Shown: piece by piece, positions 1,421 to 55,966 of the stretch
Position numbering within the stretch: the first letter of the stretch is position 1
How the letters are laid out: each line of letters begins with the position of its first letter
Origin: Cheilinus undulatus
Taxonomy: Eukaryota > Chordata > Actinopteri > Labriformes > Labridae
Assembly: GCF_018320785.1 (NCBI RefSeq)
Contig: NC_054876.1
Span: 22,652,212-22,716,211 of the forward strand
Direction of reading: 5' to 3'
DNA: 64,000 nt
Notes under the pieces: generated by a model
Seen by the model: the letters and a program-made list of their open reading frames with translations, nothing else
Database searches by the model: none
Told to the model about the DNA's origin: nothing
Position numbers and translations under genes: made by a program

Positions 1421-2661
1421 CACTATATTGCCAAAAGTATTCGCTCACCTGCCTTGACTCGCATATCAACTTAAGTGACATTCTATTCCTAATCCATAGG
1501 GTTTAACATGATGTCAGTCCACCCTTTGCAGCTATAACAGCTTTAACTCTTCTGGGAAGGCTTTCCACAAGGTTTAGGAGTGTGTTTATGGGAATTTTTG
1601 ACTATTCTTCCAGAAGCGCATTGGTGAGGTCACACACTGATGTTGGCCAAGAAGGCCTGGCTCTCAGTCTCTAATTCATCCCAAAAGTGTTCTATCAGGT
1701 TGAGGTCAGGACTCTGGGCAGGCCAGTCAAGTTCATCCACACCAAACTCTCTCATCCATGTCTTTATGGACCTTGTTTTGTGCACTGGTGCACAGTTATG
1801 TTGGAACAGGAAGGGGCCATCCCCAAACTGTTCCCACAAAGTTGGGAGCATGGAATTGTCCAAAATCTCTTGGTATGCTGAAGAATTCAGAGTTCCTTTC
1901 ACTGGAACTAAGGGACCAAGCCCACCTCCTGAAAAACAACCACACACCATAATCCCCCCTCCACCAAACTTTACACTTAGTGCAATGCAGTCAGACAAGT
2001 ACCTTTCTCTTCGCAACTGCCAAACCCAGACTCGTCCATAAGATTGCCAGATGGAGAAGTGATTTTTCACTCCAGAGAACATTTCTCTACTGCTCTAGAG
2101 TCCAGTGGCGGCATGCTTTACATCACTGCATCCAATGCTTTGCATAGCATTTGTTGATGTATGGCTTAGATGCAGCTGCTCGGCCATGGAAACTCATTTC
2201 ATAAAGCTCTCTACGCACTGTTCTTGAGCTAATCTGAAGGCCACATGAAGTTTGGAAGTCTGTAGCAATTGACTCTGCAGAAAGTTGGCGACCTCTGTGC
2301 ACTATGCACCTCAGCATCTGCTGACCCCACTCCATTTTTTTACGTGGCCTACCACTTCATGGCTGAGTTGCTGTCATTCCAAATCACTTCCACTTTGTTA
2401 TAATACCACTGAGAGTTGACTGTGGAATATTTAGGAGCGAGGAAATTTCATGACTGGACTTGTTGCACGGGTGGCATCCTATCACAGTACCACACTGGAG
2501 TTCACTGAGCTCCTGAGAGCGACCCATTCTTTCAAAAATGTTTGAAGAAACAGTCTGCATGCCTAGGTGCTTGATTTTATACACCTGTGGTCATGGAAGT
2601 GATTGGAACACCTGATTTCAATTATTTGGATAGGTGAGTGAATATTTTTGGCAATATAGTG
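1421..2661 (-). mobile_element. decayed Tc1-like DNA transposon, family 1
   Basis: The ends are inverted: CACTATATTGCCAAAAGTAT on the left and the complement ATTTTTGGCAATATAGTG on the right, flanked by TA at 1419-1420 and 2662-2663, the Tc1/mariner target duplication. The transposase runs on the minus strand in at least three frames. A helix-turn-helix part lies at 2584-2384 (SSHEISSLLNIPQSTLSGII), a second DNA-binding part at 2335-2123, and the DDE core at 2082-1630 with [16 protein letters not shown] and [20 protein letters not shown]. In the core, the motif normally read QHDCAPVHK is QHNCAPVHK, so the second catalytic Asp is lost. At 1241 bp the element is near full length but cannot encode an active enzyme. 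A truncated relative lies at 28085-28900. Confidence 0.93.
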
Positions 2662-3876: not shown

Positions 3877-4649
3877 CAGGGGTTTTCAAAGTGTGGGCAA
3901 GTGAGCCTCCCCTAGGAGAAGATCATTCATTCCACGGACCCCCACCACCATGAAAAAAAATAGGATTAAAAAAGATGTAACCTTCATTTTCAAACATTTG
4001 TCAAATCTGTAAACATTTTTATTTTTAACATTTTAATATTGTTGATACTTTGGTTTACATGTTTTTTGAAACATCTGTGTTACCCTGACAAACAGGTATT
4101 TGGTTTCAGTGATTAACTTATTGCCAGTACCACCTGATTGTTGTGCTCTGCACTCTAATTTAGTGGGAACCATGAGTTTGCATAAGCAGATCATCCTTCA
4201 CTTTCAGCCCTGCCTGGTACTCACTTTTGATCATTATTGGTGCCAAAAAACCTGCACCTGCAGAGGCTTGCTTTAGTTTTTATAGTGCTAAATATCTCAG
4301 TTACCTTCAGTGACTAAAATTACTTCCTATCAAAAAATTCCCCTGACTTGGTGCTTTGACTCAGTGTGACCCCAGGGCTTACACAGCCTTGCTGTCATTA
4401 GCTCATACATCTTTGCAAATTAAACAGTATCAATGTTTAGCATCATCAGCACCACTGCAGGAAAATCCTAACTTTAATAGTCGACTCTAGTATAGTCTTC
4501 GTAGTAACTATTAATCTGTCCATTTTGTCTCACACACAGTAAAGGTAGCAAAACAAATCACCTTGTTTTCTGGTTTATGGGTCCGCTCCCCCCCTGAAGT
4601 CCTGTGGTGCCCCCCATGGGAGGCCCACCTCACAGTTTGAAAACCACTG
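3877..4649. mobile_element. hAT non-autonomous element A (MITE)
   Basis: The left end reads CAGGGGTTTTCAAAGTGTGG. The right end, read in complement, is CAGTGGTTTTCAAACTGTGA, an imperfect terminal inverted repeat of about 20 bp. Both sides carry the same 8 bp, GTCTAGAC (3869-3876 and 4650-4657); 8 bp is the hAT target-duplication length. The 773-bp body has no transposase-like frame, so it would depend on an enzyme made elsewhere. Confidence 0.9.
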
Positions 4650-4657
4650 GTCTAGAC

Positions 4658-4978
4658 CATTGGTTCCCAGCCTGGGGTCTGGGAACCCCTTGAGGGGGTG
4701 CCAGAGATTTCATGGGGGGTGTGATGGCCTGTCTACCCTGAGGTTGTTACAGTTTGGTTCACTCAAACTACCTGAAATCATTGAAAACCTATACAAATGG
4801 TTCATACCCAGGTCTTTTGCTAATAACAATTGTGGTTTGGGCTGTTGTCTTAATGATGAAAACAATTTAAATTTATTTGTATTTTTGACATCAATATGTC
4901 ACTTTTCTGTGTGGGTCCTGGGGGGCAAGGCTTTTCTCAGATATATGAAGGGGGGGCTTAAACAGTTGGGAACCACTG
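4658..4978. mobile_element. hAT non-autonomous element B (MITE), abutting element A
   Basis: The left end CATTGGTTCCCAGCCTGG pairs with the complement of the right end, CAGTGGTTCCCAACTGTT. It is flanked by the same GTCTAGAC octamer at 4650-4657 (shared with element A) and 4979-4986. It is 321 bp with no credible coding content; the open frame spanning it is incidental. Confidence 0.9.
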
Positions 4979-9527: not shown

Positions 9528-12500
9528 ATGTATAGTGCTTAAAAAATGTATTAGACCACCACCCAAAGTAAGATTTATGCCACAGCTGCCCTAAATTAAC
9601 AGCATTGGTAAGTACCAAAATCATTTTTTATGTTTCTGCAATGGTTAATACACCAATATGTAGAAGCTCTTTAACCGAAATGATATTTTTAATGCTAAAA
9701 TGTAATTATTATTGTTATCCATGAATTTTTCAAATTTACTGATTTACAAAAAACTGAAAAAAAATAGTAATGCACATTAGTATTTCTTGATTAATATGTC
9801 AAGTTATAGTTATTTATTTGCATTCCTGCAAAGAAAAAATAGTTTTAGTGGTGGAATGTTATGCCTGATTAATTTGACTTCTCAGAGAAGCCCAGTGAGC
9901 CGGCTTAAATTTGGGTATAAAAAGGTGAATTCAGTTTGAAATTCCTCATTCCTGTTCAAAATGGTAAAATGTCGAGAGCTCACTGAAAATGAAAGAGTCC
10001 ACGTTAAAGCACTTCATGATGCTGGATGGTCTCTGAGACAAATACGCAAAGACATAAAGGTTCTCACAGTGTGGTCAAATATATTTTAATTGCTGAGACT
10101 GGTACTTATAAAATGTGCCAAGGAAGAGGCAGGAAATGAAAGTTAACTGAAGCAGATGTCAGACACTTCAAGATTTTAAGTACTAGAGACAGAAGGAAGA
10201 CCACTGCTGATCTTCAGGCAGAGATGAATGCTTCTAGATCAGAGTCTGAGAAAGTCTCCAGAATGACCATAAGCAGACAACTGACGGAACAAGACTTAAA
10301 GGGAAGAATAGCTGCTAAGAAGCCATTATTGAGGTCTGCAAACATCCAGAAATGCCTCAGATTTGCCAGGGAGCACAAACACTGGACTGTTGATGACTGG
10401 AAGAAGGTACTCTGGACAGACAAGTCCAAGTTTGAACTTTTCGGTCAGCATGGTTGTTTATGTCTGCAGAAAACCTGGAGAACGTTTTGATGCCAGATGC
10501 ATTGCACCCACAGTGAAACACGGTGGAGATTACATTATGGTATGGGGTCCCATTTGTGGATACGGCGTGGGCAAATTAGTGAAAATCGACAGTATCATGA
10601 ACAAGAACATATACCACAACATCTTAGTGCATCATGGAATCCCTTCTGGACTGAATCTGATTGGTGGTGGGTTCATATGCCAACAAGACAAGAACCCCAA
10701 GCATACTTCAAAGCTGTGCAGAGACTATTTGACCAAGAAAAAGCAATCTGGAGTGCTGGAACTGATGGACTGGCCAAGTCAAAGTCCAGATTTGAATCCT
10801 ATTGAACAAATTTGGGATTGAGTAGATTTAAAGATTGATGGCACAAAAGTTTCATCTAAAGCAAGTCTGTGGGAACAGCTAGAAACTATTTGGAACTCAA
10901 TAACAAAAGAGACTGTCAAAAAGTACATAAAAACAATGCCAGCAAGAATGCAAGCTGTTATCAAGGCCAAAGGAGGCCATACAAAATATGAAGTTTTTTG
11001 GTTATTATGTGTGAAAAAGGACTATTTAGTTGTTTCAGTTTGTTATTTGCCAAATAAATAATAACATTTTTAGTTTTAAACAAGTTTTTGAAAGATTTCT
11101 AAAATATTTATGTTTTCTCGTTTTTGTCACAGGTGGTCTAATAAATTTGTTAAGCACTGTATATAATTTGTATATTATTTATACCCAGATTTTTTTAGTG
11201 TTTGTGTTGTTGTCTCCCCCCCCCCCCCCCAAAAAAAAAAACTGTAAACCTGCTGAGCATGAAGTCACCTTTCTGTCTGCTTGCTTTTATGTACTTTGAA
11301 CTTAATAATACTCCTCTGGTCTTCTGCAACACCTTGCTGTCCTTTTTGTTTGATATTGGTTAAAACTCTTACTCTCTCGTTTGCAGCCTAGTTTAGTAGA
11401 GAGGTTGGTGGTGGTTGACATCAGTCCAGCACAGACCACCTCACGCACCAACTTCCACTATTACATCCAGGCCATGCAGGAGGTGAAGATCTCCAGTGAC
11501 ATCCCACGTTCCACCGCCAGGCGGATGGCTGAGGATCAGCTCCGCAGTTTGGTCAAGGTCAGGACAGGTTTTTGGTCTAAACTTTTCAATTTAAAATGCA
11601 ATGATGTCAGTGTACCTACTCTCATACTGAACTAGCTGTCACCATTTTTTGTAACCTGGCAACCAAAGAAAACAAGTTCTTACTGATATTTTAGTACTTA
11701 ACAGCGCTGATAAAATGCACTTGTTAGTAAGTGGTTGCCTTTAAACGTGTGCAGCTGATACACATTAAAATGATACAGTCTCTACCAGCTAGTAGCTTAC
11801 ATGTGGTTTCAGGTGTTTTTTTTGTTTTGTTTTGTTTCTTTTGTTTTGTTTTGGTTTTTTTTACGTTTTATGCAGAAAAAGCTGCCTATTTAATTTCTAA
11901 ATGTGTCTGTTAAGTGTGTTCCTAACAGTATTGGTATTGAACTGCTCTTCTCTCCCTCAGGAGCGCTCGGTGCGCCAGTTTCTGCTGACTAACCTGGTGG
12001 AGCAGAACGGGCATTATGCCTGGAGGGTCAACTTGGAGGCCATCTCTGCACACCTTGATAATATCATGAGCTTCCCTAGCTTTGACTCCACCTTTGAGGG
12101 GCCTACACTGTTTTTAGGAGGAGCAAGTTCTGCGTATATAAGGTAAAAAGACCACAAACACAGACTATATTTTCATAGAGCCCAATCTGTGGATTACTTC
12201 AATCTCTGAATATGCCAGGTATCATAGCACTGATTAAAGTATTTATTTTTCCATTTTCAAGAAAATTGTTGACAAAAAACACATTCAAAGGCAAAAGAAG
12301 TCCTTTTTCCATGTGAGAGTTCTGTGTTTTTCATGGATTTATTTTCCAAAAATAAGCATGAAACAAAAAACAAACAAAAAAACTGGAGCCACGTACTACC
12401 TGGTGGTTTTATACACGAGATTTACAATTGCAGTGCTTGGTGAAGAAGGGGTAGCTTACTTTTAGGCTCTTCCATTTTCTGGTGAAAACAAGCTTCAGAA

Positions 12501-33740: not shown

Positions 33741-34086
33741 TCAACAAGTCATCAGTCAGAACATAAGCAACCTGGTTCATCTTCCTCCAATCCCTTTAAT
33801 CTACTTTTAATATCATATGGATGTCAAGTAAGAGTCAAATAAAACTAGAGAATTTTAATGCCTACATCAGTGGTTCCCAAAGGGGGCACAATAAGGCAAG
33901 GCTTAGCAACACAAGCTGATGACTTCAGCACTGCAGAATTGGAGCAATTCATTGATATCACTTAGATTCGACAGTGCCATTGAGAGCCTGGTCACACTCT
34001 GTCTATTTGCAACAACCTACCTGGGTGTGATAGTTGTTTTTTCTGCTGTTGCTGCTATTAAGACAAAAACAAACAAACAAATCAGA

Positions 34087-34260
34087 GCAGGGCATGGATG
34101 GCTTAGTGGCTTAAGGCGTGCCCCATGTACACGGTCGGACTGGCCTGTGGCACTCTACTGCATCTCTCCCCAGCTCTCTTATCCCTGTTTCTGATTCTAT
34201 CCACAGTCCTCCTCTACTAATAAAGGCGGACAAATCCCAGATATCTTTAAAAAACAATCA
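34087..34260 (+). mobile_element. tRNA-derived SINE
   Basis: GATGGCTTAGTGGCTTAAGG is an A-box-like head, GCGTGCCCCATGTACACGGT follows as in the copy at 21604, and ACTAATAAAGGCGGACAAAT is the tail region. It lies between sumf2 and cct6a. Confidence 0.6.
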
Positions 34261-34479
34261 TTAAACAAAAATATATATATATATATCTCAAAGCTGGGAT
34301 TGTCAGCCTCACAGCTGCACCCAAGCCTCAAGAGATCTGTAGCACCAAAAAGCCCACAGTAGTCACTGAATTTTTGGCAAGACTTCTAAATCTTGATCTT
34401 CAGAGAGTTATCATTTTAAACTAATATTTTTAAGTTTTGATGTTATGGTAAATTCACATTAAGGAAAACCTTGAGAAAG

Positions 34480-34650
34480 ATTATACACACTGAAAGCGTT
34501 GGTCAGATGAGACCAAACTAGAGCTCTTCGGCCATAGAGTTGTTGCTTATGTTTGGAGTAAGAAGGGAGAGAGGTATAACCCAAAGAACTCTGTCCCAAC
34601 ACTAAAACACAGCTATGTGGAAGCTTCACTGTAAGGGGGGTAATAACTTT
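34480..34650 (+). mobile_element. Tc1-like transposase fragment
   Basis: The translation includes WSDETKLELFGHRVVAYVW and SKKGERYNPKNSVPTLKHS, the segment around the first catalytic Asp of a Tc1 transposase. The rest of the element is absent. Confidence 0.8.
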
Positions 34651-34827
34651 GTCCTCATTAATTGAACCATTGGTTGTGTGTTAACCATTTATTGATATTA
34701 CAGTCCAGGCATGGCTGGTAGTTTTATTTTTAATGTGTTTTAGTGTTCCTCCAGGTTAATTAGTGTATTATTTATTGAATGTAGATCACTTAAAAAAAAA
34801 CAAGACAAAATCTTTCAAGAGCCGAAA

Positions 34828-34836
34828 ACAATCTTT
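34828..34836 (-). terminator. cct6a: candidate cct6a poly(A) signal
   Basis: TTTAAT in AATCTTTAATGGG reads ATTAAA on the minus strand, about 260 bases beyond the cct6a stop codon. Other hexamers are possible. Confidence 0.3.
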
Positions 34837-35095
34837 AATGGGTAGAAACAAAACTGAGTGATTGAGGTCAGTGCTTTTAACAAAATCTCATAAATAAACC
34901 AATCAGAGGGAGACATTGACAAATCCATGAAAAACCATGACTAGCAAAACAATGGTTTCTGACAGACGCTGTGATGTCTACAGCAGGCTGTCCATCAGAC
35001 TGGGGTGCTTCAAAGTTCAAAGAGGGGCAACAAGTTTACTCAACTGTCATTATCCCTGTGATTATGATAACAGCTGCAGCTCCTTCAGTTAACAT

Positions 35096-38000
35096 TTATC
35101 CTTTTAGAGATGACATTCCAGCTCGCATGATCTCATCCACCAACAAGATGTTGCTGGCAATCACCGTGCTATGAAGGGAAAAACGAGGTTAGAGAGGACA
35201 ATCCTTGATAATTTAATTATTAAATTAATGTACAGATGACGTATGCATAAGCTCACCATGAATGAAGCAGCTGCTTCTTAACACTGTAATTATCCCATAC
35301 ACCTGCTTCTCCTGCCACCATTGGTTCTCCTGAAAAACATGAAGATTCAATGAAGAAAAGAGGTTGTGCTAGAAGCCAAATGGGATAATGCAAGCACAAC
35401 TCAGTAATGTGAAATACAACAATTTAAGGACTCTTCACTAGTATAAGGATATGAAATAAGGCTACTGCAGGAAAGGTCTATTTCTACAAAAATTTGAACC
35501 CTACACAATCTGTATTTTCAGACACTTCTGTGTTATGGCGGTTATCTGGATTATAGCAAGCATGCAATTGATGCTCAGTAAGTAAAAAATAGCTCAGACC
35601 TATTTAAATTCATTCAGATTCAAGCCAAAAATTGGTAAGCAATATTTCTGAGTTAATAATCATACTGCCATGAGACTTAAAAATCAGCAACCAAAGATGT
35701 ATCTTAAATGCATTAAAATGAATTGCTTTGAGTGATCTGAAGTATGTGTTATGGTTCTGACCTGTGCTAAGATCCACTCCAACTAGCTGACCAGACTCTT
35801 TGTACTCTGTCTGCAGCTTCAACAGGGTCTCCTGTGGGTCATAGCCTGAATTCTGGGCCAAAACCTGACAAAACAAATGCAAATTAAAATCAAAGTAGTA
35901 AAACAGTATGAATGCTGCTGACAAGAACAAGGTAGATTTACAGTATTTCAAGTCTCATAATAAAGTTGATGTGAGTAGTAGTAAAACAAAGAAACATGAT
36001 TTTCATACAAACATGATGCCATTTATTTGTTTATTTATAAAGGGACCATGTACAATAAAAACCATAAATGTTTCCATTTGATGCATTGTACCAGAGTTGG
36101 TTTAAAGCTAATTTACATCTGCAGTCCCTTGGCAGGTCACAATTAAACCATCAATTATAAAACATCACAAAGAAATGGAAATAAAACAACATTTAAGGGG
36201 TCAAGTAAAAAGCTCTCACCTTAGGGATGACTAGAAGAGCATCTGCAAATGCCTGGACTCCCAGCTGGGCTCTGCCTTTCACATTTGGCTTATGTTTTAC
36301 CAGAGTGTCTGCCACAGCCACTTCAAATGCACCTGCACCTGGCACAACACAACCTGAGGAGACAAGGATTAAAAGGAGACACTCAGAAACTTAAAATACT
36401 TGCCAATGCTCAGACAAAAAGAAATGTATTCATTTTTTCCAATCCTGACTTAAAAAGAAGTCAGGGGAGTTTGTTCTGATCAGCTGAATACACGTAGAAG
36501 AGACAAAAACTCTTCTAGTGCAGAGGAAAAGACCAGAGTCACTTTAGCACAGGCATGAGAGACCAGAGGGAGCCACATTAACATCTCTGGGTGTTCACTG
36601 TGCACACAGCAAAACTAAATATTTAAAAAGGAACAGTTGCAACCAAAACATAGAATTTAGAAAACACAATTTCATGTCTGAAATGATCAAAGTTGCCAAG
36701 TCTGAGATGTTAAAACACTCTGCTAAATGTGAAACATAATCAAATAATAATCAGAATCATAATATTATCAAACATATTTTTAAGCCAAATGCAGTATGAG
36801 AAAAAGTAATACTGGTTTTTAATATCACTGCTTAGCCTAGAGTTAATTTAAACTAAGAACCGAGAATAAAAATTAAAACATGATGAACTACACCCAGGTA
36901 GGTATATATAACTGAACAGAATTACTTTGCTAAATTTTTCTCTTAAGTGATTAAAAATTCAAGGAACAAAGTAAGTTGTTAAAACATTTCTTGTTCTTTG
37001 ATTCTCACCATCTTCAATAGCGTTCTTGACTGCCCTCAAACCATCTCTTACAGCGTCTTTGATCTGTGTGAGGGTGTGTTTGTTGGGTCCTTTCACCAGC
37101 AGGGTAACGGAGCGGGGATTTCCACACTTCTCAATAAATGTGTACTTCTCCTCTCCCTGCAAGAAAGAGCCACCCAAAATTTTACAAGTCTGCATCGATA
37201 TCTAAAACATTCATAACAGTATGCTAGCAGTGTATTTGAGATACGTTTACTCACCAGTGTGTGTTCATAAACCAACCCAGCGTTTCCCAAGCACTCCGGT
37301 GTAAGGTCATCAACTGAATTCATGGCAATGCCACCACAAGCAAGGGTGAGCCTGCAGAGACAATAACACACTGTATGAATTATTAAGAAAACCTTAACAT
37401 GTAGGTTGAAATGTAAAGCCCCTGGAATTACAGCATCTGTGGACAGAAGAAGCTGTCAGTACGTGCTGCTCTCCTGATGTAACAGAATCAAGTGTGCTGA
37501 ATCATTCAGGTTAATGAAGCAGGTGCACCTCTGCTCCTTCAACAGAGGACATCTTCTACTAATGTAAGATGGGTAATCAGGGTTAAAGGTTGATCAAAAA
37601 TACTTCTGAGTCAAATCCTTTGATTAGTTTGTTGGGGGTCACTGGCAGAGAGCTGTGAATAACTGCTGAAAAGCAGCACACATTAACCTTTGCTTCTCTT
37701 TATACCTTGTATTTTTTGTTTACTCAATATCCTTATCCACGTTTGTTATGTTTATGTTTAGCTGAGACATAGTTGTTAGCTATGTACACTAAAACCTGGT
37801 AACTTTGTTGTAATCATCATCCAGCACTGCACTTTTGTTACATAATAATAAAAAAACATCAATAAAAATTTCTTGAGTTAAAAACATACTTTTGAGAGCC
37901 TAATAACATTAAGTTAACTTCTGATTTCCTGATTCCTATCCCATGACTGACATAACAGCATGTTTGTTTGTTTTTTACCAAAAACTGTTTAACGAAATCC

Positions 38001-41000
38001 TTAAATTATCAGTATCTCAAAAATTTTACATAAAATGGAGCATGGGGACAATAAATAAACCATAAAGCTATGTTACACAACCTGGCACCAGGAAAAATAT
38101 TTATAAGCAATTTATTGTAACTGCTTACTTGATTTAAATAGCCACATTTCTCCTCTCTCTCTCTGAGTGGAGAGAGTCCTGAGCAATGCCATCTCCCCAA
38201 CCCCTCCTGCTTTTCTTTTATCACTTCTGATTGGTTAAAAGTCATAGACTGAAATCTCTACACACACATCAAGTCAAACACAGTGCAGGAGGAGAAAATA
38301 TCCTGCATTTATTCTGTGCTCTTTAGTGCGGAGAGGGGACACATCACTACAGGAGACACGCAAAAACATTTTCTCTGCCAAGACAAGCTTTTGGTGTGGC
38401 TCTCTGCTCTGGTTTTAAAAAGAAATATGGCCCAGTTCCGAGGAAACAGCAGCTTTCCTGCAGCGACACCCAAGCCAACAGCTAATGCGACAGCAGCCCC
38501 TGAATATACCGGACAAGCAGACCGCAATGATCAGAGTGGGAGTAGAGTGAAAACATCTATTCTGTCATGGAAAGCTGCTGCTTTGTTTAAAAGACTTTGT
38601 CCAGTTCAGACAAAACCGAGGCTAGTCAGAGCTAATCACTCCACTTGCCTTGTAGACAACCACTTGCAACAGCTAACCATTTCCCCATAACCATCACATA
38701 CTCATGCTGAAGCAGGTCGGCAGAAGAGCGAAAACATCTTTCATAACATGAAAAGAGTACAGGTTGTTTTAATTCTTTACTTCATACAGAGACGTGGTCC
38801 AGTTCTAGTAAAAAGGAAGTAATGCTAAAGCTATATCTGAGTATTTACAGCAGTAGAGGCAGCAATTAGAGGGCTGTCAGTACAACTAAACCCCGCCCAC
38901 AGCGTAACTGTGTGTATGGCTCCATTTACCACAGTGGAGGCAACCATTACCAACGGCCTTCAGTACAAGCAAACCCAACTCTGTAATGGTATGACTCTGA
39001 AAGTAGGATCACTCAGTCAGTCAGAGATTCAGATACATGGAGGCCCACATGTGGCGCTGACCTCAGCAGTCAGCCAAAAAGAAGTCAGGGGAGTTTGTTC
39101 TGATCAGCTGAATACACGTAGAAGAGACAAAAACTCTTCTAATGCAGAGGAAAAGACCAGAGTCACTTTAGCACAGGTATGAGACCAGAGGGAGCCACAT
39201 TAACACCTCTGGGTGTTCACTGTGCAAACAGCAGAACTAGTGACAAGCACAATACCAACTAAAAGACGGAGGAAAAGAAGAAAATACACAAATAAACTTG
39301 ACAGTATAAGAACAATAAGTGGAAAACAAAGACAATGTTTAAACATCTTCTTATCAACTAAAAACATATAGCAAAGACTAAATCTCTCCTAAAGCAGAGG
39401 GAAAGAAGAACACAGTGACTGTAGAACAGACAATTGTAGCACCATGTCAGCCTCCCTGGGTGTTCCCTGTGTAAAGTGGTTGTCACAAGTTTAAAAGAAA
39501 GAAGCCTAAAAGGATTATTAGAGGAGAAATTTTGGTTTTGCAGAATATATCCTTGAACATATCCTTGGCAATTATGGTTTATTCATTAGACACTTGGACA
39601 CACTGGTCTGTTGGCTTTTGTTGTGACTGTTCAGACTGATAAGCTCCCTTTAAAGGAAGCAGATGAAATTCAAGTGACAGACATCCTTCTGTGGGACAAC
39701 TGTAAGTTGACAATTGAAACATACCTCTTTATTAGCTATCACTTTGCTACCCTACAGTCTTCTTCCTTTTGGCTGCCTTTACTTAGTATTTTTTTCTAAT
39801 AATGAACCAACTGTAATTCATTTTCATTTTATTTTGACAACATCATACATGGCAACCAACCAGCCTTGTTCTTTTTCAACTCTTGTAAGGAATGCTCTAA
39901 ATTTTAATTTAACATAAATGCATATTCAAATAACCAACTTATATTTTTCCCATTTTACGGAAAAAGGACTCTGGCATCGTAGAGAGGAAATGTTTCTTTC
40001 TTACCTCTCCATGTTCCTCCTCTTTGCCCTGCGCAAGGCCACAATGCCTTCTTTGGCAAGGGCATCCAAGGAGAATGGGTCAATACCCTACACAATAAAG
40101 AGAAAACAAGCATTTTATTGATCAAAAACAGAATTAAGAAATAAAACTTGTCCCTTTTACCCATGTAAACATTATTCTGATCCGCTGAATACATGTAGGG
40201 GAGGATGATACTCTCCAAATGCAGAGGTACAGATCAGATTTACTTTAGCACAGATGAAAGAGACCAGGGAGAGCTACGTCAGCATCCATGGGTGTTCACT
40301 GTGCACTCAACAGGATCAAATTCCATTATTTTCAACAAATTAGCTGAAGCATACCTTCTGGTTAATGACGACAAAACCCTTCTCTCCATTGGGACAGACT
40401 TTGTTCTTCAGGGCGATGATCTTCTGAACACGTTCCTCGATGAACTTCCTTTCTGCAGCCACAAGCTTTTCCCTCTCCTCGGCACTCTTGTAGAAGAAGC
40501 CAGAGTTTACTTCGGTCTTTTCGTACTCCAAAGACACGTTGCACGTCAGCACAAAGGCATCCTCCACCCTCTTCTTCATGTCTGGGTGACGAGCACCGTG
40601 GTCCAATACCAAACCTCTGATCAGTCTGAAGAAGACAAAAAGAAAACACAGAAACTATTATTAGTCCTGAAATACTTCACATAATTGAAACACTACTTTT
40701 ATAGGCATGAGCTGTCTCTTGTCCCTCCATCTAGGTTTTTATTTTTATATTTGAAGACTTACTGTGTATCGCAGTCAGTCTTGTGTTTCATCTCCATGAT
40801 TTCTACCATGTACAGGTCAATGGGTTCATTGGGTTTAGTGATGGCAAGCACAGCATCAACCACAGCCTGAAGACAAACACATCATTACACACCATTGAGG
40901 AAATTGTGACAGAAAAGAATTCTTAGTTTACAGGTAATGATCCTCATTATAGAGCAATTACATTTGTGACAGGAACATTTCTCACCATTTACATTAAAAC

Positions 41001-43694
41001 TGAGGATTAAGTTTACTGAGAGTGAAAATAACCAAAAAAAAACAGTCCCTCTGTGATCAGTCACAGATCCTCTCTACTTTATTTACTCCACTTTGCTCCC
41101 TCACCTCTGTGAGCAGGTCTGCAAGCTCTGCATGGACCTTGGTCCTCAGTGAGGTGCGTGCTACATTGATGAGGGTTTCTCTGTCCATTTCACGGGTCAC
41201 CTTCACATCCTCCAGAGCAGCCAAGGCTTTATCTTTTGCTGCTTCAAAACCTTCAGCGATGATTCTTGGATGAAGACCCTGAAGCAAAGGATAAAGCGGA
41301 TTCTGGGTATGAGCATGATTTCTGAGCATATCAATATCCAAATAATGGGGGGAAACACTAAATAAATATAACAAACAAAGCTGACCTAAATACTCGTCTG
41401 TGATTGTAGAGCTTTAAATTAAAGTTATCTTTCTTTTTTACCTCTGACACATAGAGGTCAGCCTGCTTCAGCAGTTCACCAATGATGAGGACATTAGAGG
41501 TGGTCCCATCTCCAGTGATGTCATCTTGTGCCGTAGCAACTTTAGCAATGAGTGAGGCTGTTGGGTGCTGAATTTGCTGCAAAAAAAAAAAAACAACAAC
41601 AAAAAAAAAAAGATTTATTGTATCATGAAAGCAATTCATCATGGTGATTGCACAATATTGCTTTGAAGTATTGAAAATGGACTGCAAGGGTAGAAAACTT
41701 AGACCAATGCAACTACAGACAGTTCTATCAAGGTTGTTTTTATTGTATGGTCTATAATAGCGTGTCTAGTCATCCAATCAAAATATCAATCATGTCAGAA
41801 ATCCATCCGACCGGTCAGGAGCAACTTGTCAGGCCATAGTTGGTGCACGGTCGATCGTCACATCCCCCTGTACACAGCATAACAAACAAATACAATCCGA
41901 CTGAAAGTCGGTACGACTTCCAAGTGAGTCGAGCCACTCAAAAATCGTGGCTAAATCGAGGAAATATGCAAACGTGTACTCCTGGCTTCAGGGGATTATC
42001 TCATTAATTCTATCACTACATGAATCCCCCAACAGCAATAGGAATGTAGAATATTTTGTTTATTAAATCAATACATTTTGACTGAGGTGGCTTGAGATTT
42101 TTTTTTTTATTATTTTAAAGGGTGACCTGACAGAAAACAGGTTGAGAAACCCTGGTCTATAAAATGCCTTTTTTAAATGTCCGCTTCTGTCTTACAAGGA
42201 TATTCATTTTTACATATTTGAAAAGAGAAGCCATGTGGCATATGCCTGAGTTTAGCTAAAACTCAAGGTGTGTAAATTGTTTTTTTTCCCCTCCATACAC
42301 ACAAAAGCAAGTGCAGAAATTGCATGAAAATAAAAGTTGGCACCCTTGCAGCTCTCGTTCAGTATGTAGGCAGTATAATTTGATGTGTATGACAGAAGTA
42401 CTGACTTGTTGCTGCACCAGACATTCATGGGTCCATGGACTTCAGTAGCCAGCACTCAAGTTTAATGGCATAATGTGTTTCAAATGTTAGCAAGACACCG
42501 GGCAAAATATTTAGAAATGGTAACTTGCCTTTTAACCCCCCCCCCCCAAATTACATAAACTCCAAATACAAGCAGAATAAACAGCTATTTTCTGAGAGAA
42601 AGAGTTGACATGTCATTAAAATAAAAAAAAGACCACATCTGCAGCAAAAATTTTCAGACACCCTATGGAAGCTGTCTGCCTTTGCACTTATAGGAGCAGA
42701 CAATACTTTTTCAAAACTGTAATACTGAATCAAGCTCTTTTTTACTGATAGTTTTCACAATATTCATACAGGGTTAATAGGTATCCACACATTAGGAGGG
42801 TGGGGCCACTCCACCACTGGAGAAAATAATGAAGGAGCAAAGAGGACAGTGATGTCAGTGACAGAAGACGACAATAAAGAGGACATGACAATACTAAGTT
42901 TCAAAGCTCAGCACTTTCTTACCATCTCATGTAACAAGACGTTGCCATCTTTGGTCAGCTTGATGTCTCCTGCACCAGACACCAGCCTGCAGACACAGAC
43001 AAGCAATGGAGTTCATGTTAAAATCCTGGCTGCCGATGTATGAAGTCTTCTACAATGAAAGGACCCGCTCAGAAATGAGGTATCATGATTAACTGTAGTT
43101 AATATAATGATTATTTCACTTATTGTTGCCATCTGCCTCAACTGCCAGGTGAAGAAAGGTTTGTCCCTCATCGCTCCAGGAGATTTTAAGATAAGCTGAC
43201 AGCATCGTTCTGAGTTGAACCGTAACTATAAGCCATTAGCCATAATCTGCTAGCATGCTAACATTAGCTTGCTGTTGTCAAAACGGGTCGTGACGATGAC
43301 TGGGCAGGACAACGTGCACCGGGAAAATCCGTTTCCAGCAACTGGAGGCCCAAATTTAATTAAGTACTTTGTGATGGACATTTACAAGAAGTAGACAGAT
43401 GCAGCTTTCCTATCGGTGAAAATATACTCTGGTGTGGCGACAGAGTGACTATAATATCCCCTGTGCACAGTCTTCACGTGAATTGCTGCTCATGCTAGCT
43501 CGTTAGCAACGTTAGCTTAGCACGCGTGCTGCACAAAGGGTTCCGGGCTGAACTCACATTTTCATGGTCCCCTTCGGTCCCAGGTTACTTCTCAACACAT
43601 CCTGGAGTCCCCGGGCGGCACTGATATTAACCGCCAGGGCAGCCTGGGCCCTGGCCACCTCTGCTTTCGGGTTCAGAGCTTTCACGGCAGCCAT
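35096..43694 (-). CDS. cct6a: CCT6A, T-complex protein 1 subunit zeta
   Basis: Thirteen coding exons on the minus strand join in phase: 43694-43558, 42986-42923, 41576-41442, 41278-41105, 40866-40763, 40625-40355, 40087-40005, 37351-37255, 37156-37009, 36353-36220, 35864-35762, 35329-35257 and 35168-35096. They give 531 residues, the length of human CCT6A. The start [19 protein letters not shown] and the end AGMSSLKG are family-typical. [11 protein letters not shown] (about 36-46), KLTKDGN, GDGTTSN (89-95) and VVPGAGA (407-413) are the group II chaperonin ATP-site motifs. [15 protein letters not shown] and [11 protein letters not shown] belong to the apical/intermediate part. The product is one of eight subunits of the cytosolic TRiC/CCT ring that folds actin, tubulin and WD40 proteins. 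Introns 6, 7 and 9 each carry an H/ACA snoRNA-like copy. Confidence 0.98.
36020..36150. repeat. dispersed repeat fragment in cct6a intron 10
   Basis: TTATTTATAAAGGGACCATG followed by TACAATAAAAACCATAAATG resembles a frequent fish interspersed repeat. Boundaries are unclear. Confidence 0.4.
36469..36604 (-). ncRNA. H/ACA-box snoRNA, copy 1, in cct6a intron 9
   Basis: Read on the host (minus) strand, the 136-nt copy begins TGCACAGTGAACACCCAGAG. The 5' hairpin closes GCACAG with CUGUGC and has an upper stem CCAGAG/CUCUGG, leaving an internal loop for target pairing. The hinge reads UAAAGUGACU, an H-box-like AAAGUG. The 3' hairpin closes CUGGUC with GAUCAG and has an upper stem UAGAAGAG/CUCUUCUA. 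ACA lies exactly three bases before the predicted 3' end. Human CCT6 loci host H/ACA snoRNAs of the SNORA15 and SNORA22 families, which fits; which family this is I cannot say from sequence alone. Such RNAs guide pseudouridylation of rRNA and are trimmed from the spliced intron. Confidence 0.82.
38340..38840. repeat. imperfect tandem unit array in cct6a intron 7
   Basis: Three related units follow one another. Each has a GTTTTAA-like core and an ATGGCCCAGTTC-like end: CTGGTTTTAAAAAGAAATAT then GGCCCAGTTCC; TTTGTTTAAAAGACTTTGTC then CAGTTCAGAC; TTGTTTTAATTCTTTACTTC then GGTCCAGTTCTAG. Units are about 180 bp apart. GTGAAAACATCTATTCTGTC and GCGAAAACATCTTTCATAAC begin two of them. The origin is unknown. 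Confidence 0.5.
39093..39226 (-). ncRNA. H/ACA-box snoRNA, copy 2, in cct6a intron 7
   Basis: Nearly identical to the copy at 36469-36604 over its whole length and into the 3' flank. It differs by a 2-base loss in the 5' hairpin (CUCUGGUCUCAUACCUGUGC) and a few substitutions. GCACAG/CUGUGC, CUGGUC/GAUCAG and the terminal ACA all remain. The high identity between introns 7 and 9 points to recent duplication or gene conversion. Confidence 0.8.
39341..39475 (-). pseudogene. decayed H/ACA snoRNA copy in cct6a intron 7
   Basis: Read on the minus strand, ACACAGGGAACACCCAGGGA, CCCTCTGCTTTAGGAGAGAT and TTTTTAGTTGATAAGAAGAT follow the order of the intact copies with many substitutions. The closing stem of the 3' hairpin is weakened and the terminal ACA is not conserved, so it is probably not expressed as a stable RNA. 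Confidence 0.6.
40170..40305 (-). ncRNA. H/ACA-box snoRNA, copy 3, in cct6a intron 6
   Basis: A diverged 136-nt relative of copies 1 and 2. It starts TGCACAGTGAACACCCATGG. GCACAG/CUGUGC closes the 5' hairpin, the hinge AAAGUA fits the H-box consensus ANANNA, and CUGAUC/GAUCAG is a perfect closing stem for the 3' hairpin. The terminal triplet is AUA, an accepted ACA variant, three bases before the end. Changed bases next to compatible stems suggest structure kept by selection. Internal-loop sequences differ partly from the other copies. Confidence 0.78.
41757..42153. mobile_element. possible hAT-type element in cct6a intron 2
   Basis: GGTCTATA occurs on both sides (41749-41756 and 42154-42161), the 8-bp length of a hAT target duplication. 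The right end, read in complement, is AGGGTTTCTCAACCTGTTTT, a hAT-like terminus. The left end does not show a matching repeat, so the call is tentative. Confidence 0.4.
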
Positions 43695-46380
43695 CGCGAA
43701 GCAGAACAACCAGCGATGTAAAAGTAAAAAAGTAACACCGGCAGGGACTCCGCACTGCCAGGGCTCGAGCGCTCTCGAAAGGAGGGTCGGTTTCCAGAAA
43801 GGTCCACACGTGGTCTCGTGCTGCCTTTATGCTACCAATGTAGGCTCGGACAATCTGGTTTGTAAAGATTTGAACTCGTAAAACAAGCATTTTTAACAAT
43901 AGACGAGAAAGGAAATTATCTGCACTTAGTTTTCTTGTTTACCTGTGTATTTACCAAATGCATTTTTATTTGATACTAAAGTAGCTTCGATTGGCCCACG
44001 TAAAAATTCTATGTGCTCTACATTTTCATAATTTTCTGGATAAAATCCATATTCTACAGATTTACACCAAACCTAGACTGACTAAGTGGACAATCTGCCC
44101 TTGGCCTCTTCCTGTTTCAAAAGCTGGTTGAAAGTTTTGATACCATTAAAGAACGTGTCCTTTCTGATTGTTTACTATTATTATTAATACATCTTTCAGT
44201 ATTTAAAAATGTTGTCAAATTCTTGAATTAATTAATTGATTACTAATTTGGTTAATTATTTTAATCGACTGACAACACTAGAGTAATTTCTATTAAGAGT
44301 TAAGGGGCAAAGATGTGTGATGCTCCCACTGTTCTAGCGAGGCAAAGTACTCTTGAAGTCTACCCAAATTTCAGTCTTGATTGAAAATGTTACAATCATG
44401 TTGTTTTCTATGTCACTTACAACAGCTTTTAAAATTCCGACTTGTATTAAAACGCTGATATTGGCAATGGTAGCTCTTGATCTATGTTGAGAAAACTTGA
44501 TTATCCTATATTTTTTGTCACTGTTGCACTGAGTGTGGCGTTTAAAACACCAGATACGAGGTCTGGTGTGCTCGTAAACTTTGGCATTGCTGGTTCTTCC
44601 TGAATTATAAGATTTCCAACAACCACTGAAGGCAGCACTAGTCACACCCTAGATGACGCGCCGATTGGCCAAGTTATGTCACCTCAGAGACGGTCTGGAT
44701 ATGGATATAGAGCTCCAAGTACACACCTCATGTTATGTTATAAATAAAATGTTGTTAGGATGGCACTTGGCGGAGTTTAAGCTTCAGTTTTTGTTTCCTG
44801 AACAAAATTCAGTGAGCACTTTTGTACACCCTTATCCCCCCAATAAACCGGCATGTTTGGTTATCTTGTCTCTTGGATGGAAAAATGAGCAGTGTAGAAG
44901 CAGCACCAGGAACTCCGTCGGTCCATGAAATGTTATCGTTCCAAGAAGACACAAAATGAAAGAAATTCAAGACTTTTTTTCATTTACATCAGAAGTTTAA
45001 TTCAATATGTACAACTAATTTTATCAAAGCACTGCAATTTGCATTTACCACATTGTGATATTAATCCTCTCCTGTCAATTTGTTGACCAATACAGGTTAG
45101 GATACCACACTTACTTTACAGATATAGGACTGACCACCACATTTTTTTTGTTTGGTAAGTAAGCCTACTGTGTATATCTACAATCTGACCTTTAAAAACC
45201 CATTAATGTCAAGCAGCACAATCACCGGTTGCAACTGATTACTTGAAAAAGAGATAGGCCACACTAGTCTGCATACAGTAGTACGCAGATACTGATTAGT
45301 TGTGCTGAAGTCAAAATAATTTCCATCACAGTGTACCCAGGATGCTGAAGTTAGAAGAAATCTGGAGGTATGGTACATTTAAAAAGGAGACACAAACAAG
45401 GATAATTAGCGCAAGTTCAACTTCAGAATAATATTCTATTCATCAACAATTAAGTAGGTTCTAACATTTCACTGGTTGTTAACCTACATTTTTGTGCCTC
45501 TTCAATACATTATTGTTTAAAATAATTTTATTCCTCCCCTTGATAAAGCCAGGGGTTACACATCGTTATCAGTTGGCTGTGATTAGAGCCATACAATCGT
45601 AAAATGACATTTTCTGGAGGAGTGAATACCCGGTGACCTTTACCAGACACAAAGCTAAGGTCCGAATTTAGACCTGCAAAACAGTCCCCATATATCTGTC
45701 ACTTAAAAAACAACACTGATTTGTAAACTGCATGCTCCTCTTTCTAAAACAAACAAACACCTGCTAACTCAAATCAAACTCATAATAAAGGCTAACTGCT
45801 CTGTAATCATATTTTTTTGTTGTGAGAAACTGAAGGGAGATGCATTTGTTGACTTCTTATTAATGATAGTGCAAAGAGGGCTTTTGTTTTGTTTTTTTTT
45901 CAGGGCTTTTGTCAGTTTTCTTCTGCAGCATATTTTATGACGACATTTTCAGCCCCTGTGACCAGCACTACAGCTGCCAAATGTTAGAGTTGCATCTCTT
46001 CTCACATCTGAACAAAAACTGATGACAGTTTAATATCATCTTTAAAAAAAAAGGCAAGCCATTTAAAATCAGATCTTTCACATGACAGAGACAGGGAGGA
46101 GCATGTCCAGTTATATTTTGTCTACATAAGTCGCATTAATGGATCAGTAACACAGTAACTGCAGTAACAGATACAGTTTGATGATTATCTGCTGAAGTAA
46201 GACATTCTAACCCCACACAGAAAACGGAAGTAAAGAAAAAAAGAAAGGAAAAAAACTGAAACGTGCCGATGTTACGCAGATAACCCCGGTAGTGCACACT
46301 CCAACGGCTGGTTATGCTCTCTGCAGATCAGTGATGTTTGCAAGGGTTGCTGAGAGGTTCCCCCTGCTGTTTGTCACTGG
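43695..46380. other. cct6a promoter side and probable nipsnap2 3' UTR; no gene seen
   Basis: The left part holds the cct6a promoter, rich in CpG near 43560-43830. The right part, below 46381, is likely nipsnap2 3' UTR; TTTATT at 45527-45532 (AATAAA on the minus strand) is one possible end. In human the serine-phosphatase gene PSPH lies here; I find no trace of its exons. Confidence 0.45.
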
Positions 46381-49300
46381 TTACTTCAAGGGTGAAGTCT
46401 TCATGGGAATCATTACTCTAGATTCCATGTGCTGAATGAGAGGGACTGTAGGACAGAGAGGAAACAAGTCAGGTTACTGTGAGGATTCAGTTTCATAGGA
46501 AAAGACATGAAAGCACTGAAACATGTATGGAAGCTAGTTTGACCAACAATCCATGTCCGTTTCCATCCTTAGAATAATTTTAATCCTAAACATATAACCT
46601 AAAGTGATCCATATTTAATCGATTCATTCATGTTTATTTTATGGATTTTAAGTATTGAACTCAAACATGAAACCCCTTTTCATTTATCTTCTAGAAAAAA
46701 CGGGCATAAATTATTCCTCTGTTTACTGTTAAAGCTACATGTAAGTTCAAAGTTGTTCAAGTTGTGTCCTAAATCCTGACTAGAACATGATTTCTGCAGT
46801 ACTAAAACAAAGGAAAATGAACATAGGAAATCAGAGTCACAATGGGTAAAAGTCAAGTTAAATAAGAAGTGTTGGGTAATATGTAATATGACAGAACTTG
46901 TAAACAAGTAAAAATATTTTTAGTTTTTGCTGAAGCTCTCTGTTTCAGATGGCTGTAGCTGTATGCAGTAAATGATGAAAGGCTACAGAGATATGAGGTC
47001 ACAGCTATAATACAATCCTGGATCCCATCTGTGGTCACTTGGTGCCAATTTAGCTTTAATTTACCACAATAAACAAACATATGTGTCCAAAGGCAGGTAA
47101 CAATCTGCTCTTGGATGTCATCATTAGAATCCAATTCCATCCTCATTTAACCAGTTTCAAGTCAGACCTCCTAGGACAATCAGGAAACAATAGACTTAAC
47201 AATGAGGAAAAAAATCTCAACTGAATGTCCTTTTTTTTTTTTTTAATAAACATAGGCTGCACCAGAAGCCCATACAGTGTTCTGTCACTCTAAAGAGACA
47301 TTATTCTTGTTGGATGGGTTACAAAATGGAGAGCTTCCAACTTAATCATGTACTGTGTCAGAAATAGTAACATTAATAGGAGATGCAGTCTTCTTAAATC
47401 ACTTCCTCTCAACTGAAGCAAGAAAAAGCTTTAAACTCCAAAAGCAGGTTACATCCTGACTTTTTCAGGTCAAATAATAACCATTAAACTACTAAGAGTG
47501 GATGTTTGATATAATTGTCCAGCACTATAAAAATAGTAAGAGGAGGGGAGATGCTTACCAGTATAATAAACAACCTCGTCCCAGCCTTCACGCTGCCACG
47601 CCGCATTTCTGATGTTTTCTCTGGACTGAAGATCTTTATAAGCTGAAATCAAAGACATACAATTATATATTTTTGGTTAAACTGTTGGCTGTGTTCTGTT
47701 CGTATCAAAATAAATTTAGCCACACACCGTCTTCTAAGAAAAGCATTGAATTCTGACAAATAAATATTGTAAATATTTGTAGAACAGATATTTACTGCTA
47801 ATGTCCCACATACATAAATCTACAGCAATTTTACTATTGTTTGTAACATTAGAAATGGGCAGTAATACAGTAATATCATATATCCCACGGTATTTAATAA
47901 CAGGGGTGGTACTGTTTAAGACCGTGCTGTGGAATGAGCAAAGGTTTACAATAAATGTCTTTAGTGTGTGTTTGTTTCAGATGCAGATTTAAGACTTGTT
48001 AGTAGAGCAGGCATCCATATACAGAGGCTCCAAACTCACACTGGTCGAGGGATCAAGCTCCCAGTGTGGCAAGATGCTTTGAAAGTGATAACAGAACTCC
48101 TGCTGGTTATGTTAGGCTACTGTGTCAAACAACAAACCAGGACTCAGGTACATATTCCCTTTCCTATGCCTTTGCTCTATGTGTTGCTGCAAAAATTAGT
48201 AATATTTACAGCTGATCTTTATCTGTTTAAAACCATAGAAAACATTGCATCACATTCCTAGATCCAGTCTAAAAATGGTTGGGGGTTATTTTTCATATTA
48301 ACAAGGGGAGAAAAGAGAGCATATGTGGGCTTTTATGCAGAGAGAAAAAGAGAAAGGGAAGGGACAAAACTTTATCTGATCCACTGTCCTGATGTGCACA
48401 TGTACGCCAGCAAGTGGTGGTTCTGTCCTGCTTCTTGTGAAGTGTTGTGTTTTTTAACACCTGGCAGTAACACCATATACTGCAGGAAATTGTGGAAATG
48501 TTTAACAGGATAGAAAATTGGATACTGCCCAACCCAATGTATGCTACTCTATAATACATTAATGCTTCAAAGTTGTCAAACCCCAGAAACACTGCTTACC
48601 CCATAAATGGTGAACTGTGTACAGACTTCCAATCTGTGAGAAAAAGCCTCCCACTGCCTCCTGGTTCTGCTGGCGGATTTCAATAGCACGCGCCCTGCAA
48701 AACATAAAGAAATATGTTACCCAAAATGAATAAATAAATAAATAAAAGCTTTTTATCATAGGTTTGAACCATAACCACCAACATAAATCTGTAGGTTTTA
48801 AAGTTCAAATTAAATTGGAACTGATACCCCCATAATTTCTCTAAATTTAAAACAGAAAATATTGATGTTGAAAATTAAACACAGTCATAGTATTGTATCA
48901 TCTATGTTTATTTTTAAACATTGGTGCCTTTCTGTTTCATTAGATGGGTACATTCATAGCATTTAAAAGGGCAATTAGAGTCAGCCTTGAGATTGATAAA
49001 TTGTATTTAATAAATCTCGTCATGCTTTAGAGTCATGCAAAGATTAATATAGCCAAAAAGTACCGTTAAATCATATTCACCTGCTACAGTCTGCAAACCA
49101 ACAGAGTAAAATAGAGGTGAAGAAATTATTAACGGTGCATTATAATAACTTTGGTGTTATCACAAAATATGAAGACAGCTTATAAGCATCTTACTCAAAT
49201 GGATCCAATAAGATGACTGTCTAATACTACATTTAAAAATAAATTAAGACAGAAAGGGAGCTGGGTTAGAAATTCATGCTTACCAGTAATTTCCCCACTC

Positions 49301-55025: not shown

Positions 55026-55966
55026 TCATGAAGTTGATGAAGTAGATGAAGTTTGTGCTGGTGGTGTATCAGCACCACTTGGCACAGCAGAAATGTTTAG
55101 CTCTTGTATTTTCTCTAGCAATGTAGCGTCTTCCTCCAGGTTCAGCGGTAGGTCAGTCAGCTGCTCCACAAACTCAGTTCCTGCAACCCTCTTTCCCGTC
55201 AGGGGGTCAACCACCTGACCAACCTTATGCACAATTTCTACCAGTTCATGCTTCACGTGTTTGGACCTGGCCTCCAGTAGAGCCTTGAGAAGGACTATAT
55301 CCCCAACAGTGCATTGTTGCAAAGCATCATGGACAAAGTAGGTTTTCCTCTTGTTGTAGTACTGCAGAGAAAAATAAATGTGAGTTTAAACAGAAGCTGA
55401 TTTCAAATCTTTTGGTTATATTAAACTGAATCTCAGCAATTTACAATTATGACTGACTACGAACAAAAGGGTGAATTGTCATTTAACAACTTATCTAAAT
55501 TGTTATAAAAATGAACATCAAATTAACACCACAAGTTACCACATACAAACAGATATTATGTGTAAAAACAATCACAGCATTCCTTCTCTTTTTTTGAAAT
55601 ACTACCGGCAACATATGATTTAAAATCACTTCACAAATATTTAGTGTCATCAAGATTTTAAAAAATCAAGTATCATCAAAGTACCAGAGTTAACAATCTC
55701 ACTTTTTATAAAGCCATGAAATTCAGTCGATAATTCCTGTGTTTCCATTCGGAAATTTAATAGACATGATAACAAATCACTCTGAAGATGATTTCTGAGT
55801 AAAAACCCGGGGCATCTGCGAGCTCTTAGAGCCCTTAGGAACATTTTTAAATGTTCACCTTGAGCAGGTAGGGGTCCAGGACCAGCCTCGTGACTCTTAC
55901 TTTAGCTGTTTTTTGCATCTTGGTCCCTATTACTCTGCCAATGATCCATTTCGCATGGACCGACAT
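55026..55966 (-). CDS. mrps17: MRPS17, small mitoribosomal subunit protein uS17m
   Basis: Two coding exons on the minus strand, 55966-55859 and 55361-55026, join in phase 0 to give 147 residues. [20 protein letters not shown] and [19 protein letters not shown] are the S17-type OB-fold start. [18 protein letters not shown] (about 41-58) is the conserved S17 core. [20 protein letters not shown] follows as in vertebrate MRPS17. The protein contacts 12S rRNA in the mitochondrial small subunit. Human MRPS17 is about 130 residues; the excess here is a Ser/Thr/Pro tail after about residue 130 ([16 protein letters not shown]). The gene is 870 bp upstream, in genome order, of nipsnap2 and on the same strand. 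Confidence 0.95.

Follow-up and report, generated by a model that had tools for sequence, protein, structure and literature searches.

Are the repeated elements in the introns of the cct6a gene of Cheilinus undulatus genuine box H/ACA small nucleolar RNA (snoRNA) genes, how did several come to lie in one host, and what might they guide? An initial annotation, made from the letters of a 64-kilobase (kb) stretch of contig NC_054876.1 alone, had placed three sense-strand copies of one H/ACA family and a fourth, decayed copy in cct6a. We scanned this whole stretch, the window below, with Rfam 15 and found three matches at or above the gathering score (80 bits for SNORA22). All three were full-length, minus-strand matches to SNORA22 (RF00414, box H/ACA), and they fell on the three annotated intervals, whose ends agreed with the Rfam boundaries to within 1–2 nucleotides (nt). 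With high confidence, we interpret the locus as three intact intron-encoded SNORA22 box H/ACA guides and one dead copy that originated by cis-duplication inside cct6a. The copies and their host are as follows, R1 being a covariance model that we built from the three intact copies:

36469-36605, minus strand: SNORA22 copy 1, in cct6a intron 9 (RF00414, 85.8 bits; fold z −2.99; H box AAAGUG, tail ACA)
39093-39227, minus strand: SNORA22 copy 2, in cct6a intron 7 (RF00414, 94.2 bits; fold z −3.66; H box AAAGUG, tail ACA)
40170-40306, minus strand: SNORA22 copy 3, in cct6a intron 6 (RF00414, 86.1 bits; fold z −3.51; H box AAAGUA, tail AUA)
39343-39474, minus strand: decayed SNORA22 copy, in cct6a intron 7 (R1, 41.4 bits; Rfam, 28.3 bits; fold z 0.08; tail AGA)
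35096-43694, minus strand: host gene cct6a (TCP-1/CCT subunit zeta), coding part including the stop, 13 coding exons, from exon joining and a PDB match

The decayed copy scored below gathering (E 0.18) in a permissive Rfam scan of positions 34000-48000 with 4227 families. R1, run with default filters and a rough E calibration, recovered it at E 1.3e-9. Across the window, the R1 search returned six matches up to E = 10, namely the four copies, an antisense overlap (E 0.064) and one match at E 9.8, and this covariance search thus yielded no convincing fifth copy in the 64 kb. The antisense match (40113-40244, plus strand) partly overlaps copy 3 on the opposite strand and was taken as its shadow. 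Two sub-threshold matches from the permissive scan of 34000-48000, to SNORA35 (24.3 bits, gathering 39) and Six3os1_3 (17.8 bits, gathering 40), were taken as chance.

The host was reconstructed by joining 11 of its 13 exons in frame across GT/AG junctions by script, and exons 12 and 13 were read by eye from the same output. The 483 residues encoded by the 11 exons matched T-complex protein 1 subunit zeta in the PDB at E 8.6e-281, compared with 7.9e-262 for zeta-2, and we therefore assign the host to cct6a, which on its sequence is apparently intact with an open frame. All snoRNA copies are sense to it. Copy 3 occupies intron 6 (267 nt), with the 5′ and 3′ splice sites 48 and 82 nt away, respectively; intron 7 (2653 nt) holds copy 2 and, 115 nt upstream of it in the sense direction, the decayed copy; and copy 1 lies in intron 9 (655 nt), whose 3′ splice site is 115 nt away. 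Exon joining, protein match and snoRNA positions thus bear out the annotated host, orientation and spread over three introns. Near copy 2, intron 7 also contains degenerate direct repeats about 180 nt apart, at 38351, 38538 and 38719 (38351-38755).

Folding of each intact copy gave the hairpin-hinge-hairpin-tail arrangement (−42.5, −43.4 and −41.6 kcal/mol for copies 1, 2 and 3), with only 2, 1 and 1 of 200 shuffles, respectively, folding equally well; both hairpins had been predicted to be kept in these copies, and they are. The decayed copy showed no H/ACA fold, folding no better than its shuffles, and no ACA tail, which together with its sub-gathering Rfam score and its recovery by R1 agrees with its description as decayed. 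With the 3′ end set at the Rfam end, the tail box was placed 3 nt before it and reads ACA in the first two intact copies and AUA in the third, as had been annotated. The H box has the consensus ANANNA, which the AAAGUA of copy 3 fits. Pseudouridylation pockets lie 14–16 nt upstream of the H or ACA box; every intact copy has the start of its 3′ guide strand 15 nt ahead of the tail box, and the distance from the upper stem to the H box, which defines the 5′ pocket, is 15 nt in copy 2 and 17 nt in the other two. The stems of copy 3, described beforehand as compatible with those of the others, are so: standard pairs fill 97.2% of the 108 pair cells of the three intact copies (92.1% once the decayed copy is included), and both sides have changed in 3 of 36 pairs, against 1.4 expected. 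This covariation lends weak support to conserved stems, since the sequences are too few.

Three grades of divergence separate the copies, consistent with the proposal of an expansion caught at three ages. Copies 1 and 2 are identical at 131 of 135 snoRNA sites and differ by one 2-nt indel. Copy 3 is 75.9% identical to copy 1 (104/137) and 75.6% to copy 2, and the decayed copy is 67–69% identical to the other three. Copies 1 and 2 had been called almost identical including their flanks; this holds for the snoRNA itself, but the flank likeness, although real, is short, stopping after 17 nt (all identical) on the snoRNA 3′ side and after 12 nt (11 identical) on its 5′ side. The duplicated units are therefore delimited as follows:

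36452-36617, minus strand: duplicated unit with copy 1 (166 nt), identical to 39076-39239 at 159 of 164 aligned sites, similarity stopping outside
39076-39239, minus strand: duplicated unit with copy 2 (164 nt), identical to the copy 1 unit at 159 of 164 aligned sites

In their 20-nt flanks, copies 3 and 1 agree at 4/20 and 9/20 positions, and copies 3 and 2 at 5/20 and 9/20. Because the stems have been kept over 24% divergence while the flanks have been lost, this comparison within one genome suggests that copies 1 and 3 have been under selection as snoRNAs.

Several copies with sharp edges are also what a plain interspersed repeat scoring by chance as H/ACA would offer, and scattering of the same sequence over the genome had been named as the observation that would point to one. 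We searched the genome (1,173,462,691 bases, 46 contigs) by BLAST with copy 1 (E ≤ 0.001) and copy 3 (E ≤ 1), and each query, with very common words skipped by the tool, returned the same three places, all in cct6a. The decayed copy was absent from these matches, so that strongly decayed copies are missed at these settings. Because both queries led to the same three places, a dispersed repeat is unlikely, and with a SNORA22 family match that is specific and full length we give the chance-scoring repeat a negligible probability.

As to how the copies arose, the data do not separate a short block cis-duplication inside cct6a from an old duplication homogenized by gene conversion. That copies 1 and 2 are old and have been kept alike by conversion between introns 7 and 9, rather than recently duplicated, is a possibility we hold only tentatively. 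Their 97% identity covers the snoRNA and no more than 17 and 12 nt beside it, ending abruptly at flanks that are unrelated, as a conversion tract would look; the copies are not cleanly nested, copy 3 agreeing with copy 1 at two of the four substitution sites and with copy 2 at the other two; and copies 1 and 3 have the 2-nt indel state in common. However, a conversion tract requires prior homology, the 17 + 12 nt of common flank is equally expected from one transposed block, and there is no third sequence with which to polarize the changes between copies 1 and 2. Attempts to order the copies gave no direction either: at the 30 sites where copies 1 and 2 differ together from copy 3, the Rfam consensus, tried as an outgroup, agreed with copies 1 and 2 at 13, with copy 3 at 8 and with none of them at 9, and the decayed copy did so at 12, 10 and 8, respectively. 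As these counts are uninformative, we name no copy as ancestral.

Copy 1 (or 2) could instead have moved by retroposition mediated by a long interspersed nuclear element (LINE), as in mammalian snoRNA retroposons, and the copy 1 unit is indeed flanked by an 8-nt direct repeat, TTAAAAAG (36450-36457 and 36623-36630), that resembles an L1 target site, for which a consensus is named in PMC2832892. Yet one side of this repeat overlaps the unit shared by copies 1 and 2, and direct repeats of at least 8 nt occurred by chance in 2.6% of 2792 sampled intron-window pairs. Neither copy 1 nor copy 2 has a 3′ poly(A) tail, their 30-nt 3′ flanks being 17% and 10% A, and of the hallmarks of L1-type retroposons only the single 8-nt repeat, at copy 1, was found. 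Moreover, all three BLAST matches lie in one gene, and a chicken survey describes snoRNA retroposons as not evident and duplication as mainly intragenic (PMC2653536). We regard retroposition as quite unlikely and retain duplication within cct6a as the origin of the array.

The family, structure, host, orientation and relationships of the copies are thus observed directly; expression, processing, target and dosage we infer with the help of what is established for the class. H/ACA snoRNAs mature through splicing of the host intron, debranching, exonuclease trimming and protection by dyskerin, NHP2, NOP10 and GAR1. On that model, cct6a would be transcribed and spliced and its introns debranched, exonucleases would trim each intron back to a snoRNA shielded by these four proteins, and each resulting ribonucleoprotein could guide pseudouridylation. 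Copies 1 and 2 would pair through their 3′ pocket with 28S ribosomal RNA at U4501 in human numbering, a position near the peptidyl-transferase center, copy 3 keeping a shorter match, and the most likely effect of the extra copies would be a higher dosage of one guide, or redundancy.

To derive this candidate target, we compared the 3′ half of each snoRNA with a hand-typed 40-nt piece of 28S, taking the best bipartite match by script; all pairings and chance rates given here are therefore relative to that hand-typed piece. Copies 1 and 2 matched best at U4501, with 8 + 6 pairs formed by AUUCAGCU (8 nt, 3′ side) and UGGUCU (6 nt, 5′ side), with the UCU beside the upper stem as an alternative to UGGUCU on the 5′ side. 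Copy 3 matched U4501 with 7 + 3 pairs (AUUCAGC and UCU), the 3′-pocket AUUCAGC being kept in all three intact copies, and the decayed copy matched best with 7 + 4 pairs at U4500, one base off. When the 3′ guide strand was held 14–16 nt before the tail box, 3, 4, 85 and 315 of 1000 shuffles equalled the match of copies 1, 2, 3 and the decayed copy, respectively. Only copies 1 and 2 thus show a notable match to the published U4501 site, that of copy 3 being indistinguishable from chance in this test. We accordingly set aside, as too strong, the contrast of a dead copy without the U4501 element against intact copies that all retain it, copy 3 being near chance and the dead copy keeping a weaker match.

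Several observations weigh against this interpretation, both of the copies and of their target. In copies 1 and 2 the H box lacks the final A of the consensus, the 5′ pocket of copies 1 and 3, at 17 nt, falls outside the 14–16 nt range, and copy 2 sits 1741 nt from the 3′ splice site of intron 7. The covariation was equalled by 37 of 500 shuffles with three sequences and by 42 of 500 with the decayed copy added. For the target, the match relies on the hand-typed 28S piece; once the position rule was dropped, matches as good arose in 13, 12, 104 and 194 of 200 shuffles for copies 1, 2 and 3 and for the decayed copy, respectively; about 7 nt separate the 6-nt 5′ element from the upper stem, which only the UCU adjoins; and the 7 + 3 match of copy 3 was reached by the 85 of 1000 shuffles given above. 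In the literature, position 4501 is the predicted SNORA22 target, whereas the position reported as modified in human 28S is 4502, not 4501, and U4501 modification is on record only for an artificial substrate assayed in yeast (PMC8522698). Knockout of human SNORA22 left the pseudouridine at 28S position 4966 (psi4966) unchanged (PMC10454564). With psi4966 unchanged and U4501 modification restricted to the artificial yeast substrate, the endogenous target is doubtful.

The copies might also divide labor, copies 1 and 2 keeping the stronger U4501 pocket while copy 3, whose upper stem is altered and whose element is weaker, and copies 1 and 3, whose 5′ pocket is shifted by 2 nt, act elsewhere or nowhere. 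Such a division would parallel the active and inactive SNORA22 pair of Xenopus. We consider it unlikely, although the weak match of copy 3 in the shuffle control counts slightly in its favor and slightly against the favored explanation of three intact guides and a dead copy. Two further suggestions of the initial annotation are not established: target drift may apply, above all to copy 3, whose 3′ pocket retains AUUCAGC but whose whole U4501 match is in the range of chance, and a lineage-specific expansion would have to be set against the two SNORA22 copies reported for Xenopus.

Among known systems, the array resembles human SNORA22 (ACA22, RF00414): three copies match the model over its full length, the 3′-hairpin consensus AUUCAG + CUCUGCA is kept, and the host is of CCT6 type. 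Of the two families named beforehand as guests of human CCT6 loci, SNORA15 lies in CCT6A (PMC6466398) and SNORA22 in the pseudogene CCT6P1 (PMC10454564, PMC6466398). The C. undulatus arrangement differs in that all three SNORA22 copies reside in cct6a itself, and SNORA15 had no Rfam match up to E = 1 in 34000-48000. In chicken, the ACA22 counterpart GGgACA14 is likewise intronic in the same gene, in CCT6A intron 3, but it is listed as a single isoform, and its authors predict other targets, 18S-775 and U12-19 (PMC2653536). Xenopus, like C. undulatus, has more than one SNORA22 per genome: SNORA22(1) and SNORA22(2) are reported to differ only in their upper stems, a part in which copy 3 also departs from the others here, and one of them is inactive on the U4501 substrate in yeast; the Xenopus copies number two, in contrast to three intact ones here (PMC8522698).

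Duplication of snoRNAs in cis, with paralogs in introns of one host, is known from chicken and platypus. In human, however, only 7.3% of H/ACA families with at least two expressed members confine them to a single host (PMC8178906), and approximately 90% of chicken H/ACA snoRNAs are singletons (PMC2653536); by these figures a three-copy cis array is unusual for the class. The literature already contains CCT6A as a SNORA22 host, the pair of Xenopus copies and snoRNA duplication in cis. What the locus adds is three further SNORA22 members and a pseudogene, within the host that SNORA22 also has in chicken, a finding that is real and ordinary in kind. Among open-licence PMC papers we found no published report of a fish SNORA22 array in cct6a, which is a weak negative, and the copies may well be on display already in genome browsers with Rfam annotation.

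Elsewhere in the window, two open reading frame (ORF) remnants, at 1630-2094 (minus strand) and 10333-10821 (plus strand), match the DDE_3 transposase domain (PF13358), the second at 26.6 bits, below the cut-off of 28.6, and are likely relics of Tc1/mariner type, the type being our reading of the domain. The ORF at 55026-55385 (minus strand) matches Ribosomal_S17 (PF00366) at E 6.1e-6 and is probably mrps17, a gene that lies near CCT6A in human as well.

For the SNORA22 family, which has no agreed endogenous target, the locus supplies three natural variants, alike over most of the 3′ element but different in the upper stem and the 5′ pocket, and these would be useful for asking which part of the guide matters. 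It also provides a clean case of H/ACA copies gained within one host gene, an arrangement that is less common in human.

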